Virus record (IMG/VR): IMGVR_UViG_3300012003_000003
Coordinates: 1 to 64,000 of that record
From: a virus
DNA length: 64,000 nt
Reading direction: 5' to 3' (one strand)
Positions 27,803 to 39,135 of this stretch are shown here, piece by piece. Each line of letters opens with the position of its first letter. Position 1 is the first letter of the stretch. Under the pieces are notes generated by a model. That model was not told where the DNA came from. It did no database searches and saw nothing but the letters and a program-made list of their open reading frames with translations. The position numbers were made by a program, and so were the translations under genes.

Positions 27803-28534
27803 ATGGGAAGGCAAATACTTACATGTAGAGTTACCGTCATTGAGTCTTTTAGACAATGGATAGAATCTTCTGACCAAGAAGATAAACCATGGATAAACGA
27901 AAATTCGGTTTTGTCAAATATTAAGGGAATTGAAACATTCAATATTAAGGCAAAATTCGGTTCGGCCGGACACAGTATCATTGAGGAAGCGCCAAGGTAT
28001 GCTACCATAGGTGGGTATGCAGTGGATGGTTTTACATTTACCGAGCACCAGGCTAAACCGATGATCAAGTTTCGTAATGACCATCCACTAATGACCCGCG
28101 AGCTGGCGCTGAGCAAGCTGTACCATACGCCATACTTTGACATTATCATTACGGGAACTACGGACCATTTAGAGGGAAATATACTCCGAGATACAAAATT
28201 CAAATTTAGTACTTATGATGTTTCTGATTTTATCAGCAGCTTTCAATGGAGATGTTATTTAGACATGATAGGGCTAGATATTTTTTGGTATGATTTTTTC
28301 AAAGTTTCTGGTTTTAACACAATTGAAGATTGTCCAAGCGCCAGGATATCGGATTGCGAAAGCATGATGGTAAAGCGATATCCCAGTATGGATGCTGATA
28401 TACAGGAAACCATTAATGAGTTTGCTCAGTTTATCAATTTTAAAGGATTAGAGCAACACTTAAAAATTACACCTGAAAAATATAAAAGAATATTAAGAGG
28501 CGACAGTAGTTTAAAAAAAATCATATCTTTATGA
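27803..28534 (+). CDS. RecB-like PD-(D/E)XK exonuclease
   Basis: The 243-residue protein has the RecB-type pattern: FGSAGHSIIEE (His57 and Glu61), FDIIITGTTDHLEGN with Asp121, and ILRDTKFKF with Asp130 and Lys132, then a Gln-Trp-Arg segment (SSFQWRCYLDMIGLD) like motif QxxxY. It should be a DNA exonuclease that prepares ends for Sak4. Its last 22 residues (ITPEKYKRILRGDSSLKKII and two more) are echoed after the HNH gene, suggesting the 3-prime end was replaced when the HNH element entered. Its TGA overlaps an in-frame ATG of the HNH frame. Confidence 0.78.
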   Translation: MGRQILTCRVTVIESFRQWIESSDQEDKPWINENSVLSNIKGIETFNIKAKFGSAGHSIIEEAPRYATIGGYAVDGFTFTEHQAKPMIKFRNDHPLMTRELALSKLYHTPYFDIIITGTTDHLEGNILRDTKFKFSTYDVSDFISSFQWRCYLDMIGLDIFWYDFFKVSGFNTIEDCPSARISDCESMMVKRYPSMDADIQETINEFAQFINFKGLEQHLKITPEKYKRILRGDSSLKKIISL

Positions 28535-28535
28535 C

Positions 28536-28659
28536 GCTTTACAACTCAATACAAAATGACAGCAGATCATTAACGTTTAAAAATATAATCAGCGGGCCGG
28601 TGAATCCTTCCTCTTTTGGATTGGGTTGTAAAGCACACCGCCCCCTGGTTTCTTTTTTT
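28536..28659 (+). ncRNA. Pseudoknotted leader before the HNH gene
   Basis: Helix A is 28536-28547 with 28623-28634 (12 bp, one GU). Helix B is 28594-28602 with 28636-28643 (8 bp, one bulge). Hairpin H is AATCC/GGATT (28603-28607 and 28618-28622). The order A-B-H-A'-B' is a pseudoknot. A T-rich run (28649-28659) leads straight to the ATG at 28660. It could act as an attenuator or translation switch for the HNH gene. An ORF frame crosses it, but that 43-residue extension is not HNH-like. Confidence 0.55.
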
Positions 28660-29214
28660 ATGCAAACAGAAATAAATTTTGATGTTGAGGTTTGGAAAGA
28701 TGTTCCAGGTTATGAAGGCTTATATCAAGTAAGTTCTTTGGGAAAATTTAGATCATACGACTCATTAAAGATTGCTTTTGGCAAAGGATATTATACTCAA
28801 AAGGGTAGAATATTAAAACAATCAAAAGAAAAAAACGGGTATTTAAGAATTGCTCTTTTTAAGGATTTGGTTAATATAAAATACAGGGCCCATAGAATAG
28901 TAGCAGAGGTTTTTGTTCCCAATCCTGAACACAAAGATCAAGTAAACCACATCAACGGTATAAAGACCGATAACAGAGCCGTGAATGTAGAATGGGTTAC
29001 CGCTTCTGAAAATCAAATACACGCTGTAACAACGGGCCTTCGACCAATAGGTGAAGATATTTATTGCGCAAAGGTAACAGAGAATCAGGTTTTAATATTT
29101 AGGGAGGAATATGCCTCCGGATTATCTGTTCCTGAAATATTTAGAAAGCATAATGTTTCGAGACACTTAGTAAACAGAATAGTTAAAAATAAAAGCTGGA
29201 AACATTTATTATAA
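28660..29214 (+). CDS. NUMOD4-HNH homing endonuclease
   Basis: The 184-residue product has NUMOD4 (EVWKDVPGYEGLYQVSSLGK) and the HNH core (RAHRIVAEVFVPNPEHKDQV then NHINGIKTDNRAVNVEWVT), followed by a DNA-binding repeat with SVPEIFRKHNVSRHLVNRI. Such enzymes cut intron-less or intron-bearing target sites and spread by homing. I start at 28660 because the NUMOD4 homology begins there; an earlier in-frame ATG at 28531 would add 43 unrelated residues. The gene is AT-rich relative to its neighbours and sits inside the 3-prime end of the exonuclease gene. Confidence 0.85.
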   Translation: MQTEINFDVEVWKDVPGYEGLYQVSSLGKFRSYDSLKIAFGKGYYTQKGRILKQSKEKNGYLRIALFKDLVNIKYRAHRIVAEVFVPNPEHKDQVNHINGIKTDNRAVNVEWVTASENQIHAVTTGLRPIGEDIYCAKVTENQVLIFREEYASGLSVPEIFRKHNVSRHLVNRIVKNKSWKHLL

Positions 29215-30491: not shown

Positions 30492-30562
30492 GCACCTATC
30501 GTTCAATGGTAGGACTACGCTTTTGTAATGCGTGTATTGGGGTTCGAATCCTCATAGGTGCT
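30492..30562 (+). tRNA. tRNA-Thr (anticodon TGT)
   Basis: The acceptor stem GCACCTA pairs with TAGGTGC, the D-arm is GTTC/GGAC, and the anticodon loop TTTGTAA gives TGT for Thr (ACA codons). The T-arm holds GGTTCGAATCC. The discriminator is T, and no CCA is encoded. Length is 71 nt. The top pair of the anticodon stem is a T-T mismatch. Confidence 0.9.
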
Positions 30563-30619
30563 CAAAAATATACTCTATATGGTATATAATGTTAAAATAT
30601 ACACTGATTAGCATATAAT

Positions 30620-30951: not shown

Positions 30952-32055
30952 ATGCAAAACGAAACCATTGACCCTTATTATGAAGCCGAAGCCGCACAGG
31001 CATCCGACTACGCCGAGTATTTGGAAGAAGCCAGTAAGCCCCGCAAGGGAACTATTCATTATGGCTTTGGCGCTGAATACCTTCCTAAATGGGGCATCAA
31101 AGAAGCCCTGAGAGAGATTTATCAAAACTTCCTTGATTATGGCTATTATGAGGAAGAATATCAGATTAAGGATGGCATAGTAAGCGTTAAACTAACAAAT
31201 GCGTGGGCACCAGATAACCTCGAATACCTACGTATCGGAAATACCGGTAAAACCAATGGCAATTCTATTGGCCACCACGGCGAAGGTTTAAAAATGGCAT
31301 TTCTGATTTTACACCGCAGCGGGTTTACCAGCATGATCTTTACCAACCGGTATGCTGTTTACCCCGAATGGTATAGCGACACCGAGATTGGCGATTGCTT
31401 TTGCTTTAATTACGAGATACACGAAATTCACGAATCACCCTATACGCTGGTGTTCGACTGCCCTGCCGAAGATTGGCAGGCGTTTAAGGATAACCTGGTT
31501 AAACCTTCAGATGTGATTTACGCCCATCCCCAATATGGAGATCTATTAAGCAAGCCAGCTGGCAATATATACTCAGGTGGATTGTTTGTGGCGTGTTTAA
31601 AGGGAATAAGCAGATCTTACAACATCAAACCATCCTTTATGCCGCTTGACAGGGATAGGTGCGTACCGCAAGCCTTTGACGTTGAATATTACAGCGCACA
31701 GATACTGGAAGCCTCCGCGGTTCTTACCGTAAAAGATTTGGGATATAGCGACACAAAGTATATCCGAAAGCTGCCCGCTAAAATGTATGATGATGTTAAA
31801 CCGCGAAAGGTGGGTAACAGTATTGAGTTTACCATAAAGAATGAAGCCGGTAAGGACCAGCTCATAACCAACGATGGTTTAAAGGAGCATCTTAAATCAC
31901 ACAGCCTATTCGCCAAGGCGATTGCCAGGCTAAAAAAGATGTTGGTTAAACATTTAGGGGTGTATGAGCTGCTGATTGCCTTTCGGGATAAGCACGTCAG
32001 GGGAACCGAAGCCCTGCAAGATTTTGAAATAATTTTAAACAAAATAGATAAATAA
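30952..32055 (+). CDS. GHKL-type ATPase
   Basis: The 367-residue protein has a histidine-kinase-like (GHKL) ATP-binding fold: the N-box helix GIKEALREIYQNFLDYG (48-64), a G1-like strand LRIGNTGKTNG (93-103) and G2 SIGHHGEGLKMAFLIL (105-120). No sensor or DHp domain is present, so it is not a histidine kinase. It is closer to MORC or Hsp90-like ATPases. The C-terminal half is unassigned. Phage partners are unknown; the next gene is 4 nt downstream. Confidence 0.68.
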   Translation: MQNETIDPYYEAEAAQASDYAEYLEEASKPRKGTIHYGFGAEYLPKWGIKEALREIYQNFLDYGYYEEEYQIKDGIVSVKLTNAWAPDNLEYLRIGNTGKTNGNSIGHHGEGLKMAFLILHRSGFTSMIFTNRYAVYPEWYSDTEIGDCFCFNYEIHEIHESPYTLVFDCPAEDWQAFKDNLVKPSDVIYAHPQYGDLLSKPAGNIYSGGLFVACLKGISRSYNIKPSFMPLDRDRCVPQAFDVEYYSAQILEASAVLTVKDLGYSDTKYIRKLPAKMYDDVKPRKVGNSIEFTIKNEAGKDQLITNDGLKEHLKSHSLFAKAIARLKKMLVKHLGVYELLIAFRDKHVRGTEALQDFEIILNKIDK

Positions 32056-33711: not shown

Positions 33712-33877
33712 ATCAAATGAACAATTAGAATATGAAGATCAACAACGACTTCGTAGGCTTTATGACCAACAAGAATCCTATGACTATTCACTGGATGAAG
33801 ATGGCATAAGAGAACGTTGTGACGATTGCGGCAGGTTTATTAATTCACATGGGCATTGTCCCAATTGCGATTACTAA
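33704..33877 (+). CDS. Small zinc-ribbon protein (57 aa)
   Basis: The start at 33704 gives MDKSNEQLEYEDQQRLRRLY. The C-terminus holds ERCDDCGRFINSHGHCPNCDY, a clear four-Cys zinc ribbon. It overlaps the gene before by 8 nt and lies just upstream of the cloverleaf RNA. Confidence 0.6.
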   Translation: MDKSNEQLEYEDQQRLRRLYDQQESYDYSLDEDGIRERCDDCGRFINSHGHCPNCDY

Positions 33878-33883
33878 GATAAT

Positions 33884-33977
33884 GGTTGGTATGGGTGCCG
33901 TTGTTGGCAGAATTGATAAGGACCATCAATTGCAGAGCGAATCTGCCCCATACCCCAACCTATGTGCTAATAGGTTT
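33884..33977 (+). ncRNA. Cloverleaf-like structured RNA
   Basis: A closing stem of 12 bp (33884-33895 with 33947-33960, CC bulge at 33954-33955) holds three hairpins with one spare base. They are TGCC/GGCA (33896-33909, 6-nt loop), AATTGAT/ATCAATT (33911-33931, 7-nt loop AAGGACC) and GCAGA/TCTGC (33932-33946, loop GCGAA). Just after, AACCTAT/ATAGGTT (33957-33977) forms a perfect 7-bp hairpin that shares AACC with the closing stem, so the two exclude each other. The shape is tRNA-like, but stem lengths and loops are wrong for tRNA. Confidence 0.6.
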
Positions 33978-33991
33978 TAATAATTGGTTAG

Positions 33992-34030
33992 AACCGGGTG
34001 AAAAGCGCAAGGTGTAAGCCCGGTTTTTTT
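33992..34030 (+). terminator. Intrinsic terminator after the cloverleaf RNA
   Basis: AACCGGG (33992-33998) pairs with CCCGGTT (34019-34025), followed by five more T. It lies 20 nt before the XRE start and defines the end of the upstream transcript. Confidence 0.8.
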
Positions 34031-34050: not shown

Positions 34051-34383
34051 ATGGACATACAATATATAATAAAAAACTTCGGCGCTATCTTAAAGAAGAT
34101 ACGCCTTGAAAGGGGTTTAAAGCAGGGAGAGGTTGCCGGCGGCGCCGGAATGCACAAAAGTTCATACTGCCTTTTAGAGCAGGGTACCAGGTATCTAAAT
34201 TTACACGATATGACAAAGTTGGCATCGTTTTACAATATGAACCTTTCCCAGCTAGGAGAGCGCCTGCAGCAATCGCCAGCAGAACTTAACGAGATAGAGA
34301 AGCTGCGCATGGAGTTGGAAACTGCGCTTAAACAAAACGCCTGGTTAAAACAGGAATTGCAAACATTAAAGGAGGGTGTATAA
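34051..34383 (+). CDS. XRE-family regulator with coiled-coil tail
   Basis: The 110-residue protein has an HTH domain (FGAILKKIRLERGLKQGEVA then GGAGMHKSSYCLLEQGTRYL) and a leucine-rich helical tail (EIEKLRMELETALKQNAWLK) suited for dimer formation. It is the first gene after the cloverleaf and terminator, so readthrough may control it. Its stop overlaps the next start as TAATG. Confidence 0.8.
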   Translation: MDIQYIIKNFGAILKKIRLERGLKQGEVAGGAGMHKSSYCLLEQGTRYLNLHDMTKLASFYNMNLSQLGERLQQSPAELNEIEKLRMELETALKQNAWLKQELQTLKEGV

Positions 34384-34973
34384 TGGCAAAAAATACAAGG
34401 TGGAGCTCTGATGACTTCCGTAAACAGGGATTAATAGAAACACCTAATGGCTTTATAAAGGCTGCTAAATTGGTTAATACCGGTAAGGTGGATAAGATAA
34501 AACTGCCCCCCGAATTTGTGTCGGTTAAAAATATTAATGCCCTATATCCGGATGGTAGGGTTGAGCCCGTTTTGCCAAAGGCTAACCGTAAAATTAAGAA
34601 CGCTGTTAAATCAGAGGTTGACGGTGTTAAGTTTGATTCAAACCTCGAAAAATACATGTACGGGCTTTTAAAAGGCGCAGGGATAACGTTTGAGTTTCAG
34701 GTCGAGTATTTACTACAGGAAAAATTTCGTTATGGCAAAGAGGCTATAAGGGCCATTACATTAACCGTGGATTTTTGGTTGCCAACCCGAAACATGATAA
34801 TTGATACTAAAGGGTATGCAAATGACCGAGCGCCTATGAAGTATAAAATGCTTAAATGGTATTTATTTCAGGAGGTTAAACGGGCCGGTGGCGATTTACC
34901 AATAATTGAAACCCCGTCAAATAAAAAAGAGTGTGACTTACTGTTAAACAAAATTTTATACTGTAAATTATGA
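34383..34973 (+). CDS. DUF1064-like PD-(D/E)XK nuclease
   Basis: The 196-residue protein has the DUF1064 pattern: GVKFDSNLEKYMYGLLKGAG (Glu of the first helix), FEFQVEYLLQEKF, ITLTVDFWLPTRNMIIDTKG (Asp then Asp-x-Lys) and APMKYKMLKWYL. This family is related to phage Holliday-junction and tail-end nucleases. It would cut branched or structured DNA during replication or packaging. Coupled to XRE and the next gene by overlaps. Confidence 0.72.
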   Translation: MAKNTRWSSDDFRKQGLIETPNGFIKAAKLVNTGKVDKIKLPPEFVSVKNINALYPDGRVEPVLPKANRKIKNAVKSEVDGVKFDSNLEKYMYGLLKGAGITFEFQVEYLLQEKFRYGKEAIRAITLTVDFWLPTRNMIIDTKGYANDRAPMKYKMLKWYLFQEVKRAGGDLPIIETPSNKKECDLLLNKILYCKL

Positions 34974-35209
34974 TAATGGATATAGGCGGAATATACGCAT
35001 CGGGCTTATTGGACGAATTGAAAAACTATTCTTGCGGTCAATCGATGCGTAACAACAGAATTTTAAGGCTATATAACAGATTAATGAGAACTGGGCACCC
35101 ATTTATAGCCCAACGTCTGGCTGATAAGTACCCTAATGCTATTCACATAAAGTCGGATGCTGTTATGGCTTTTGCTATGTCGCTGATGGCACAAGAAAAT
35201 AATAAATAA
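34970..35209 (+). CDS. Hypothetical protein (79 aa)
   Basis: The product is basic and helical: MRNNRILRLYNRLMRTGHPF then IAQRLADKYPN. The chosen ATG overlaps the previous stop as ATGA; a second ATG six bases later is also possible. Role unknown. Confidence 0.6.
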   Translation: MIMDIGGIYASGLLDELKNYSCGQSMRNNRILRLYNRLMRTGHPFIAQRLADKYPNAIHIKSDAVMAFAMSLMAQENNK

Positions 35210-35212
35210 ACC

Positions 35213-35428
35213 ATGCTAAAAACACACTATAAAACCCTGCTAAATAAAAACATAATGTATAAAGATATTCTTTGCAAAATAGTTAAAGTGCCAGATCCGC
35301 CTGTTTATAACGCACTGCTTATTTACCCCGGCCGCTGTGATCAAAATATCGGCAACGGCAATGGAAGGAGCGTTGAGTTGTCGCCGTTAGAATTTGAGGT
35401 TGAAGTTTTTCAAACCGTAACACTATGA
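35213..35428 (+). CDS. Hypothetical protein (71 aa)
   Basis: MLKTHYKTLLNKNIMYKDIL then VYNALLIYPGRCDQNI. A second ATG at the MYKDIL position may be the true start. It ends with a 4-nt ATGA overlap into the next gene. Confidence 0.5.
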   Translation: MLKTHYKTLLNKNIMYKDILCKIVKVPDPPVYNALLIYPGRCDQNIGNGNGRSVELSPLEFEVEVFQTVTL

Positions 35429-35799
35429 GGGGAATACTATTCATCCAAAAACCAAAGCCAACATATTCGCTGGCCAAACTGCAGGAAGTGCTTGAAAACA
35501 GGAAGTATCATAAGATTAAATTTATAAAGGATAACTGGAACACCATGAGAGCAGAAGATATTGCGGTAAAGCTTAATATTAGCCTACGTCATGTGTTTAA
35601 ACTAACAAAGGGACAAATGCCACAGAAAAAACATATCGTTGTTAAGCCGAGGGAATATGAAACAACGTTGGTCATCGACCTTGAAACAGGTATTTATTAT
35701 GGAACAATAGCCAGGGCGGCATCTGCGTATAATATGCCAGCATCCACATTGAGGGATTTAATGTCATTTAACCGTACCAATAGATTTAAAAGAGCATGA
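35425..35799 (+). CDS. HTH protein with NUMOD1-like end
   Basis: The 124-residue product has a basic HTH-like middle (RAEDIAVKLNISLRHVFKLT) and a C-terminus TGIYYGTIARAASAYNMPAS then TLRDLM that resembles NUMOD1 DNA-binding repeats found with homing nucleases. No nuclease domain is present. It may be a regulator or a remnant of a homing protein. Confidence 0.58.
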   Translation: MRGILFIQKPKPTYSLAKLQEVLENRKYHKIKFIKDNWNTMRAEDIAVKLNISLRHVFKLTKGQMPQKKHIVVKPREYETTLVIDLETGIYYGTIARAASAYNMPASTLRDLMSFNRTNRFKRA

Positions 35800-35927
35800 G
35801 AAAAGATGATCAGTTATTACCGCACCAAGATGGTGTAAAAGCCGGGCGCCGGATCAGGCTTGCAGTTGTCAGGGCAAAAATAATGTGGCTGGCTCCGGTG
35901 GGCTGGTTTAAAAGTAAAACAATTTAA
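35796..35927 (+). CDS. Small basic protein (43 aa)
   Basis: MRKDDQLLPHQDGVKAGRRI then RLAVVRAKIMWL. Its start overlaps the previous stop as ATGA. Only context supports it. Confidence 0.4.
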   Translation: MRKDDQLLPHQDGVKAGRRIRLAVVRAKIMWLAPVGWFKSKTI

Positions 35928-35939
35928 ACGTTATATAAA

Positions 35940-36146
35940 ATGATGATTACCGGTGACCAACTTTTCATTCCTACCGAAACCAGATGCAAATGTGGTATGA
36001 GTTTTTTAGAGCAATATAGGAGTTTATTGACCTGTCCAAGTTGCGGATATTATCTAATTGCCAATCCCCCCCCCATATCAAAAAATGAAAATGAGGTATA
36101 TTTGGATGAGCAGACTGGAAAATTTACTTTTAATAAACCAATATAA
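35940..36146 (+). CDS. Zinc-ribbon protein (68 aa)
   Basis: Two Cys pairs, TRCKCGMSF and LTCPSCGYYL, form a zinc ribbon, followed by an acidic linker ending LDEQTGKFTFNKPI. Role unknown. Confidence 0.58.
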   Translation: MMITGDQLFIPTETRCKCGMSFLEQYRSLLTCPSCGYYLIANPPPISKNENEVYLDEQTGKFTFNKPI

Positions 36147-36168
36147 CCGTAATTAAATATGAGAAGCC

Positions 36169-36270
36169 ATGGAAGCATTTATCATTTTTTTTGTATTAGC
36201 CGATGGGTTGGCTATTTACTGCAATTATTTAGCTAACAAAAGTCTTAACCAGTATTTTAAAAAGGATTGA
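36169..36270 (+). CDS. Membrane miniprotein (33 aa)
   Basis: MEAFIIFFVLADGLAIYCNY is one hydrophobic helix with a basic tail. The stop is one base before the next ATG. Supported by spacing and composition. Confidence 0.45.
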   Translation: MEAFIIFFVLADGLAIYCNYLANKSLNQYFKKD

Positions 36271-36271
36271 A

Positions 36272-37024
36272 ATGAAAGTTTTAAGCGACGATACAGGGTT
36301 GGTCGGAAGAGAAATTAACCCTTATTTTGAATTCGGCGGAGTTGATGCTCAACAAAACCCATTTCTAAATGAAGAATATTTAGAATTTGAAAAAAACAAT
36401 AAGCCATTCCATTTTACCGCACCCCAACAACCAAACACAGTTATAGAGTGTGAGTTGGTATGGCAGATTTTTAATGAAAGAAACAATTTGTGGCATATAA
36501 ATTGGGATCCCGGATTTAAAACATTTAAAGAATTTTCGGCCTATTGGGCAAGCGGTAACTTTACTGCAAAATCCCGCCAAGCCTTCGAACCAAAGGATAC
36601 CCTAAAACAAGGCATTATTAATGAAGACACGGTTTGCCCAACGTGCAACAAAGAGAAAAATTTCAAGTTTTGCTCAAATGCTTTTCATATCATACCAGAA
36701 TTAAAAGATGAAACAGTTGGAAGTGGCTTAAATTTATCACAACTTGAAAAAGATGTTGATATATTTATTTCCAATATAACCGATAAAGATTTTAATGAAT
36801 TTTTAGATAAAAGAGAACATACCGTTGAGCAACTGGCCGAAATGTATGCAGACAGAAAACCCGCATTATTTATAGACTTAAACGATGCCTTTAAATCGGG
36901 CTATTACAAAGGACACCAGGCAACTATTGATAAAGTATTGCGCATAATTGAAGATGCTCCAATACCAAACGATTGGGGTCAACAAACAGATTTAATTAAC
37001 CAAATCAAAGAACTTAAAGCGTAA
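36272..37024 (+). CDS. Hypothetical protein (250 aa)
   Basis: The protein has an N-terminal variable part and a mid-region with ECELVWQIFNERNNLWHINW, then a CPTCNKEKNFKFCSN zinc-like pair and an acidic helical end (KREHTVEQLAEMYADRKPAL in outline). No enzyme motif is seen. It stands between two membrane miniproteins. Confidence 0.6.
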   Translation: MKVLSDDTGLVGREINPYFEFGGVDAQQNPFLNEEYLEFEKNNKPFHFTAPQQPNTVIECELVWQIFNERNNLWHINWDPGFKTFKEFSAYWASGNFTAKSRQAFEPKDTLKQGIINEDTVCPTCNKEKNFKFCSNAFHIIPELKDETVGSGLNLSQLEKDVDIFISNITDKDFNEFLDKREHTVEQLAEMYADRKPALFIDLNDAFKSGYYKGHQATIDKVLRIIEDAPIPNDWGQQTDLINQIKELKA

Positions 37025-37031
37025 AGATAAA

Positions 37032-37121
37032 ATGCTAAATCACATTCAAAAACACTTCTGGTGGGCAGTATGGGTAGCCCTAATAACCCTAATTTTAATT
37101 GTAAATTACTTTAAACACTAA
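37032..37121 (+). CDS. Membrane miniprotein (29 aa)
   Basis: MLNHIQKHFWWAVWVALITL then ILIVNYFKH is a single hydrophobic helix. It fits the spacing between its neighbours. Tentative. Confidence 0.4.
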   Translation: MLNHIQKHFWWAVWVALITLILIVNYFKH

Positions 37122-37125
37122 TAAC

Positions 37126-37485
37126 ATGAAAAAAATATTAACTCCTGAAATACTAGAAATATTAAACAAACCGGAAAACACTTCAGTTGAAAATGCGTTT
37201 TTTGCCGGTGCTGAATATAACAAGGATCAATCTTTCCCCCCTATTTTAGCAGCATTATTCACACTATTTGCGACGTTTCTTGTTTTTGTACTTCTTAACT
37301 TATTCTTTAACGTTGAGTTTTCCGGGGATTATAAAGATGAAGCCACGCGCGATACATATTACAAAAGTGTCGCTATGAAAGACAGCGCTATGGCGCATGT
37401 AAACGATGCTAAAAATTATAACAGATACTTAGATAGTGCCAATAAATACTACGAAATTCAAAATTATATCATTAACCATAAATAA
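37126..37485 (+). CDS. Single-span membrane protein (119 aa)
   Basis: A soluble N-terminus (ILNKPENTSVENAFFAGAEY) is followed by the helix PILAALFTLFATFLVFVLLN near residues 39-58, then a charged, helical outer part. Signal-like processing is not obvious. Role unknown; a lysis or envelope role is possible from its place before the late genes. Confidence 0.55.
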   Translation: MKKILTPEILEILNKPENTSVENAFFAGAEYNKDQSFPPILAALFTLFATFLVFVLLNLFFNVEFSGDYKDEATRDTYYKSVAMKDSAMAHVNDAKNYNRYLDSANKYYEIQNYIINHK

Positions 37486-37487
37486 TC

Positions 37488-37883
37488 ATGCAACAAAAAA
37501 CAATCGCAATCATCGTAGCTTTCATCCTGGGGATGGGACTACTAAGCGCAAATGCGCAAAACAAAAAAGTTTATCAGGCAGATGCCACCACAAAACTATC
37601 CGTCCAGGTTAACGTCACCTCCGGCCAACTGCAAACTTACCTGTTCGTTTTACAGAAGGGTGGCCCGCAAGCATTGTCCCAGAGTAAGGATATGTCAGCG
37701 TATGACGTTACTCAAACAATAGCCGTTTACCAAATAGTGACAGATAGCGTAAATTTGTCCGGTTTCCGCGCCTATAATCAATTTTATAAGGTTGGTGAGG
37801 CCAAGTGGGCGGCTGATACATTAAAAGCCTTTAAACAGGCCAAAATTGATCCCATTAAACCGGTTACACCAATTAAACATTAA
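37488..37883 (+). CDS. Exported protein (131 aa)
   Basis: A clear Sec signal peptide (MQQKTIAIIVAFILGMGLLS then ANAQ) with a cleavage site after AQ near residue 24 precedes a 107-residue mature part with KLSVQVNVTSGQLQTYLFVL. No lipobox. The mature protein should be periplasmic; function unknown. Confidence 0.6.
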   Translation: MQQKTIAIIVAFILGMGLLSANAQNKKVYQADATTKLSVQVNVTSGQLQTYLFVLQKGGPQALSQSKDMSAYDVTQTIAVYQIVTDSVNLSGFRAYNQFYKVGEAKWAADTLKAFKQAKIDPIKPVTPIKH

Positions 37884-37888
37884 TACCT

Positions 37889-38107
37889 ATGCCGCCAAAT
37901 CTTATCAAGGGAAACTGTTTTATCTTTTCTGTTTTATTTATAGTAAAACATCCATCGGCTCAGTTATTGATGCGCTGGAATAAACAAAGTAAGACGGTTT
38001 CCTTTCAGGTGGCTTATGGTGGTAAGATATACAGATACCGGCGCAAAGATCGCCTTCAAAGTAAATACTGGTTTAACGGCCACGTAGTAACAAGTAAATT
38101 AACTTAG
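37889..38107 (+). CDS. Small basic protein (72 aa)
   Basis: The C-terminal half is basic and aromatic (VSFQVAYGGKIYRYRRKDRL). The first 27 residues look hydrophobic and an internal ATG at 37970 may be the real start. Role unknown. Confidence 0.45.
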   Translation: MPPNLIKGNCFIFSVLFIVKHPSAQLLMRWNKQSKTVSFQVAYGGKIYRYRRKDRLQSKYWFNGHVVTSKLT

Positions 38108-38143
38108 AACCTTAATGGTGTATAGGCAACCATACCAATCAAA

Positions 38144-38317
38144 ATGACAAAATTTGAAGCAATCAAATCACACGTATCAACCCTAGATGACGATGCAAAA
38201 AAGTTTTATGAAAACGGCAATAAAGCAGCCGGGACCAGGTTACGAAATGGACTGCAGAAATTAAAAACACTTGCACAGGAAGCACGTATCGACGTTACAC
38301 AGGCTAAAAAAGCCTAA
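38144..38317 (+). CDS. Histone H1-like (Hc1-type) protein
   Basis: The 57-residue protein matches the small Bacteroidota Hc1-like proteins: KFEAIKSHVSTLDDDAKKFY then ENGNKAAGTRLRNGLQKLK and TLAQEARIDV. The GNKAAGTRxR core is the family mark. These proteins bind DNA non-specifically and compact it. In a phage it may condense phage or host DNA. It is one of the last rightward genes. Confidence 0.7.
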   Translation: MTKFEAIKSHVSTLDDDAKKFYENGNKAAGTRLRNGLQKLKTLAQEARIDVTQAKKA

Positions 38318-38377
38318 CTTTAACCAGGCAAAGAGCCTAACAGTTTATTTATCAACTTCTATTAAACAATTAAAATC

Positions 38378-39031
38378 ATGTTTTTTCTCACTAAAATTTT
38401 AGAAAGTATCCTGCCATTCCTTTTCTCAGCTTTAAAACGCTCATGGGACAATCTTAACGAAAACCAGCAACAGGCTTTAGTTAACTCAGGCGTAATTGGC
38501 CAGTATATTAAAAACAATCTTACTGCATTAAGCGGGGACCTTGTGACAGCGATATCTACAAGTACGGGACTTCCATCGGATGTTATTGAACCCACCCTAA
38601 TAACCATTGCAGGAGAACTGGGGTTAAAAACTACCAGCGTTGATGATGCTGTAAAACATATACAGTCATTGCTAACAGTCGCAAAGGGATCAACACTTTG
38701 GAATGGCATCCTGCAAACAGCATTAAGCGTAGGTGCCACCGCGTTATCTGGAGGTACTTTAAATTGGGTACATATTGGATTAGGGTTGGGTGAATATGTT
38801 TATCAAACGTTTATTGCGCCAAAAGAACTACCGGCTATTGCAGCCATTGTAACCCCTATTGTTAACCAGATAACATCTTCTATAGATAAAGCAGCACCAG
38901 CCTTGCAAGCAAGCAATGTTCCGGGCGGTGTGTTATCACAATCGGCAAATCAATACGTGGCTCCTATGCAAGATAATGCGATTTCGGTAGGTGATACAAC
39001 AACTATTACCGATACAACACCGGGCAGCTGA
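38378..39031 (+). CDS. Hypothetical protein (217 aa)
   Basis: The N-terminus (MFFLTKILESILPFLFSALK) is amphipathic, followed by a helical region and a Gly/Ala-rich stretch (ILQTALSVGATALSGGTLN) near the middle. The tail is disordered and Thr-rich. No signal peptide. It ends before the main convergent terminator and is the last rightward gene. A membrane-active role is possible but unproven. Confidence 0.55.
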   Translation: MFFLTKILESILPFLFSALKRSWDNLNENQQQALVNSGVIGQYIKNNLTALSGDLVTAISTSTGLPSDVIEPTLITIAGELGLKTTSVDDAVKHIQSLLTVAKGSTLWNGILQTALSVGATALSGGTLNWVHIGLGLGEYVYQTFIAPKELPAIAAIVTPIVNQITSSIDKAAPALQASNVPGGVLSQSANQYVAPMQDNAISVGDTTTITDTTPGS

Positions 39032-39102: not shown

Positions 39103-39135
39103 AAAAAGCCCCGGTGATCAAGTCGGGGCTTTTTT
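39103..39135. terminator. Bidirectional intrinsic terminator
   Basis: AAAAAGCCCCG (39103-39113) pairs with CGGGGCTTTTT (39124-39134), with a 10-nt loop. It lies between the convergent rightward and leftward blocks. Two smaller hairpins (GTGGGTT/AACCCTAC and GCCC/GGGC) lie upstream at 39040-39075. The rest of the gap to 39281 shows no gene. Confidence 0.88.

Follow-up and report, generated by a model that had tools for sequence, protein, structure and literature searches.

A candidate transcription attenuator with a four-way RNA junction upstream of a repressor gene, known from one phage genome

Introduction

Several phage RNAs that couple transcription termination to the control of downstream genes have been described. 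At the IsrK locus of the Salmonella prophage Gifsy-1, a phage small RNA with a terminator can adopt alternative structures, and some transcripts continue past the terminator into a short ORF and a phage regulator, while the short RNA acts in trans on the translation of orf45/anrP (PMC4825925). In phage P4, the CI RNA and seqA control a gene block via premature termination and alternating complementary segments, with an antisense RNA derived from the phage's own leader (PMC4825925). The put RNA of HK022 (~70 nt, two stem-loops) acts in cis on termination in the early operon and modifies RNA polymerase (PMC9378689). Little has been described of RNA-based timing switches in Bacteroidota phages, and none appeared among the titles and abstracts listed in literature searches.

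Here, a structured element in a 64,000-nt stretch of a virus record (the window; the full record is 71,671 bases) was analysed. An earlier note had pointed to a cloverleaf-like RNA, a following hairpin and a terminator at this position. The element is probably a new form of transcription attenuator, known from one genome so far, to which we assign a probability of about 0.5.

Results

Genetic context of the element

The terminase and portal proteins of the phage match phage families, and as distant relatives of the terminase are found in Flavobacterium and Cellulophaga phages, the host is likely to belong to Bacteroidota. The element (33884-34030) is located within a rightward block of + strand ORFs that extends over ~16.9-39.0 kb and meets leftward genes near 39104. 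It lies between a small gene ending at 33877 and a gene for an XRE regulator, which the earlier note had also placed after the terminator. The two genes that follow it are:

34051-34383, + strand: XRE/HTH_3 regulator of 110 aa, similar to phage repressors such as RstR
34383-34973, + strand: DUF1064, Holliday-junction-resolvase-like endonuclease, directly after the XRE gene and the first annotated distal gene

Other features were found in the same block. An HNH endonuclease gene (28531-29214, + strand; phrog_59), possibly encoding a homing endonuclease, lies within it, and a tRNA-Thr (UGU) gene (30492-30563, + strand; 53.6 bits) is present 3.3 kb upstream of the element. A 367-aa protein of family phrog_6077 is encoded at 30952-32055 (+ strand), and its relatives from phages of Vibrio, Pseudomonas and Klebsiella carry the labels HATPase, sacsin-like or RIIA. 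A bidirectional intrinsic terminator is located at 39104-39135, where the rightward and leftward blocks converge.

The XRE gene starts 20 nt past the end of the terminator, a gap too small for a separate promoter, so that its transcription may require read-through, on which the rest of the distal block (34051-39031, including the XRE gene) probably relies as well. Upstream of the element, the only sigma-70-like promoter match (33856-33883) was at chance level, and no match to a Bacteroidota-type promoter was found near the element.

Predicted cloverleaf, hairpin and terminator

The following structures were predicted in the first part of the element and at its end:

33884-33960, + strand: near-perfect four-way cloverleaf with arms P1 to P4
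33884-33887 with 33957-33960 and 33888-33895 with 33947-33954, + strand: closing stem P1, 12 bp, with a 2-nt bulge at 33955-33956
33896-33909, + strand: P2, 4 Watson-Crick pairs and one G-U pair
33911-33931, + strand: P3, 7 bp with a 7-nt loop
33932-33946, + strand: P4, 5 bp with a 5-nt loop
33957-33976, + strand: hairpin H (AACCTAT/ATAGGTT), a perfect 7-bp stem of -6.6 kcal/mol
33990-34030, + strand: intrinsic terminator, stem 33990-33999 with 34018-34027 (10 bp), an 18-nt loop and 7 T at 34024-34030

G33910 is the only unpaired base at the junction. The closing stem with its 2-nt bulge, the single unpaired junction base and the three hairpins of 4, 7 and 5 pairs had all been described in the earlier note and were recovered at the same positions, the G-U pair in P2 being additional. 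The 7-bp hairpin that it had placed after the cloverleaf was also found; H reuses the AACC (33957-33960) of P1 and so excludes the base of that stem. The terminator, which the note had called strong, is the only strong intrinsic terminator within the rightward block before 39104-39135.

The comparison with shuffled controls that the earlier note had proposed favoured the fold. The 33884-33957 segment folds at -29.8 kcal/mol (z -3.7) and the longer 33880-33980 segment has z -4.1, and none of 200 dinucleotide shuffles was as good in either case.

An antiterminator between the cloverleaf and the terminator

A further structure, absent from the earlier note, was predicted between the cloverleaf and the terminator:

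33958-34013, + strand: predicted antiterminator of two helices, -18.8 kcal/mol
33958-33961 with 34010-34013 and 33963-33968 with 34004-34009, + strand: outer helix, with its 3' side in the terminator loop
33973-33981 with 33987-33995, + strand: inner helix, 9 bp, -8.2 kcal/mol

Because the antiterminator takes up the GGTT of H and the terminator's 5' arm, neither H nor the terminator can coexist with it, whereas H and the terminator are compatible. The alternative folds and their mutual exclusion were computed here, as were their strength against controls and their position in the gene block.

The inner antiterminator hairpin has z -4.2 (0/200 shuffles as good) and the full antiterminator z -3.3. 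When the terminator arm was held fixed and either the upstream sequence or the upstream sequence and the loop were shuffled, the antiterminator energy had P 0.002-0.003, and the joint P for the inner hairpin and H was 0.0024. Terminator-like sites in this phage and in its relatives G002 and G003 were also compared using mononucleotide-shuffle z-scores (a third relative, G001, repeats the sites of the same virus). The antiterminator scored -5.0 at this site, and the 17 other sites scored -2.2 or weaker. Two features expected of an attenuator are thus present, namely an intrinsic terminator (10 bp and 7 T) upstream of the gene to be regulated and an exclusive antiterminator stronger than chance, which strengthens the earlier suggestion of a leader switch controlling the regulator.

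In folding of nested transcripts, the base of P1 had a probability of 0.95 at 33970 and was replaced by H (1.0) at 33976, after which the antiterminator (1.0 at 34010-34018) gave way to the terminator (1.0 at 34027). The full-length read-through (ON) and terminated (OFF) states are ~2-4 kcal/mol apart across two energy models at 20 and 37 C. As the terminator state is the more stable, the switch would be kinetic. In the model, the base of P1 shifts the ON/OFF balance by only ~1.6 kcal/mol, and the link between the cloverleaf and the switch is therefore weak.

Proposed mechanism

The element may be an attenuator inside an operon, gating the distal genes along with the XRE repressor gene and using the cloverleaf as a sensor or timing device, a model at even odds by our estimate. 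RNA polymerase arriving from the upstream rightward genes would transcribe the cloverleaf and then the bases that have two alternative folds. In the OFF state, H would form with AACC (33957-33960) and take up GGTT (33973-33976), and the terminator would stop the transcript before the XRE gene. In the ON state, GGTT and 33958-33968 would instead pair with the terminator's loop and 5' arm, which would block the terminator, and polymerase would carry on through the repressor gene into the distal block. If GGTT (33884-33887) and AACC (33957-33960) were held together at the base of the cloverleaf, H could not form and the outcome would shift to ON. Any factor clamping the cloverleaf would therefore favour read-through, as forming P1 in full is costlier for the OFF than for the ON state, a modest effect.

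We infer that these folds form in the cell, that control runs in this direction and that an effector exists. The cloverleaf could receive its input from a protein, an RNA, a ligand or a ribosome. The junction has almost no unpaired bases for a ligand pocket, which counts against an attenuator, and its single unpaired base suggests that a small ligand is less likely as the input than a protein, another RNA or a ribosome.

It is also conceivable, but unlikely, that the element represents a phage switch of a new class, built around a compact four-way-junction RNA that decides read-through into a repressor gene and the more distal part of an early operon. Such a junction RNA could possibly sense a phage or host protein, or the translation of its own embedded short frame.

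A terminated small RNA as an alternative

Terminated transcripts would be structured RNAs of roughly 150 nt, and the best of the alternatives, itself rather unlikely, is that this RNA is the product: a free phage small RNA, or an RNA from the 3' UTR of the upstream genes, set free by ordinary termination and with incidental antiterminator pairing. The cloverleaf would then serve as a stable core, shielding the transcript or providing a binding site for a host protein or RNA. The size, the stable fold, the strong terminator and the lack of a match to any known cis-regulator are consistent with this, but the antiterminator is an outlier against both shuffles and other terminators, and no separate upstream promoter was recognised beyond the chance-level match mentioned above.

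The short frame within the element

A short frame covers much of the element:

33882-33980, + strand: ORF32 (MVGMGAVVGRIDKDHQLQSESAPYPNLCANRF), 32 residues, spanning the cloverleaf and hairpin H

ORF32 starts 4 nt past the preceding stop codon. Its codon score was 0.247, compared with an in-frame mean of 0.265, and 3.2% of out-of-frame pieces scored higher. It is thus a coding-like frame over a strongly structured RNA, with a possible dual role in coding and as RNA. These properties, and a stop codon (33978-33980) that sits exactly between H and the antiterminator, would fit a switch set by translation, in which a ribosome at the stop covers the arms of H and the antiterminator and the terminator forms, and the cloverleaf and antiterminator are able to form when the frame is not translated. 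This account is distinctly unlikely. No homologue of the protein was found in phage records or viral contigs (a search of low power at 32 residues), and ORF32 lacks the run of a single codon, or of regulatory codons, typical of classic leader peptides. Only 4 of 1000 synonymous recodings fold as stably, the native fold being stronger than the other 996, indicating that the RNA structure exceeds the demands of the peptide.

Distribution in related phages

No homologue of the element was found at the DNA level in phages or plasmids (word size 11), which weighs against the attenuator more than any other result. Scans of viral contigs using the XRE protein, DUF1064 alone, the protein encoded at 30952, ORF32 or the P1 pattern as queries recovered no useful relatives, and a scan of genome contigs with the XRE protein gave only a distant 37-residue HTH match. 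Terminase scans identified G001, G002 and G003, with 75-100% terminase identity to this phage, and one 15-kb contig. G001 is the same virus, and the region of the element falls outside its coverage. The tRNA-Thr gene was not found in any of these three genomes.

G002, the nearest full-length relative and equal in length, retains the DUF1064 gene at about 50% identity, but neither the XRE gene nor the cloverleaf element is present upstream of it, which counts against the attenuator and makes the element a variable insertion in this group of phages. A frame in G002 (L013:5-400, + strand) opens with many SQLYSQLD repeats and appears to be repetitive DNA read as protein.

Alignment of DUF1064 led to 80 viral loci. 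A covariance model (R1) built from the single sequence was run on these and on the terminase relatives, and none of the 80 DUF1064-centred loci was found to carry the element. The sole weak match (L018:7619-7685, E 0.24) lacks one arm and was treated as chance.

As the element is a singleton that was found by a window scan, it could be no more than a good operon-end terminator preceded by an unrelated, fortuitously stable sequence. The cloverleaf is the most stable three-branched fold on either strand of the whole 64-kb window, and none of similar energy occurs in the real sequence of G002 or G003. Two three-branched folds at or below -28 kcal/mol were found in six dinucleotide-shuffled 64-kb strands, approximately one per three strands, both with looser junctions than that of the cloverleaf. 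After a scan of 128 kb of strand, the cloverleaf alone is therefore unusual and moderately rare, and suggestive rather than decisive; its combination with the terminator and the strong antiterminator is better evidence. A chance origin is quite improbable, as several independent features occur together: the cloverleaf has a z of about -4, the antiterminator has a P of about 0.002, and the block's only terminator lies directly ahead of a repressor gene.

Comparison with known RNA families

No credible Rfam match was found in the element at gathering or relaxed thresholds, including riboswitch and leader families. The earlier statement that it is not a normal tRNA holds, as ARAGORN was negative and RF00005 gave no covariance-model match even at E up to 10; the sole RF00005 match in the window is the true tRNA-Thr at 30492. 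The element has no acceptor-D linker, a first loop of 4 nt that lacks GG, an A instead of U at position 33 and a third loop of 5 rather than 7 nt. YrlA or another Ro60-associated RNA was rejected, as there was no Rfam match and the phage encodes no TROVE (Ro60) protein, and identity with HK022 put RNA was rejected on its four-way junction in place of two stem-loops.

A decayed or disguised tRNA, or inverted repeats acting as DNA (a cruciform, XRE operators or a recombination site), would account for the cloverleaf shape, the CCA after P1 (33955-33957), the CGAAT in the third loop and a complementary strand that folds equally well, but is highly improbable given the negative tRNA searches, the P3 and H repeats without operator-like copies elsewhere in the window and a P1-P2 stretch without a further copy.

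Discussion

If the attenuator proposed here is real, a switch at this place, immediately ahead of the repressor gene, would act as a decision point on the extent of early-operon expression. Beyond an attractive fold, the element supplies a concrete antiterminator that can be scored. Its wider importance is unproven while only one example is known.

Leaders with a terminator and antiterminator, including transcriptional riboswitches, resemble the element in having an exclusive antiterminator and an intrinsic terminator before a coding gene, and in a structured domain with a closing stem that overlaps the switch. The element differs from this general class in having no Rfam match, in its near-closed four-way junction without an obvious pocket and in its position within a phage operon.

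The P4 CI RNA and seqA, as described, share the logic of premature termination (PMC4825925), but no complementary antisense copy was found here. IsrK is similar in logic, combining a terminator, partial read-through to a regulator and alternative structures (PMC4825925). Unlike IsrK, to which no sequence relation was seen, the element has its short ORF before, not after, the terminator. Put RNA is also a structured, cis-acting phage RNA at a terminator (PMC9378689), whereas the element combines a four-way junction with antiterminator base-pairing of its own.
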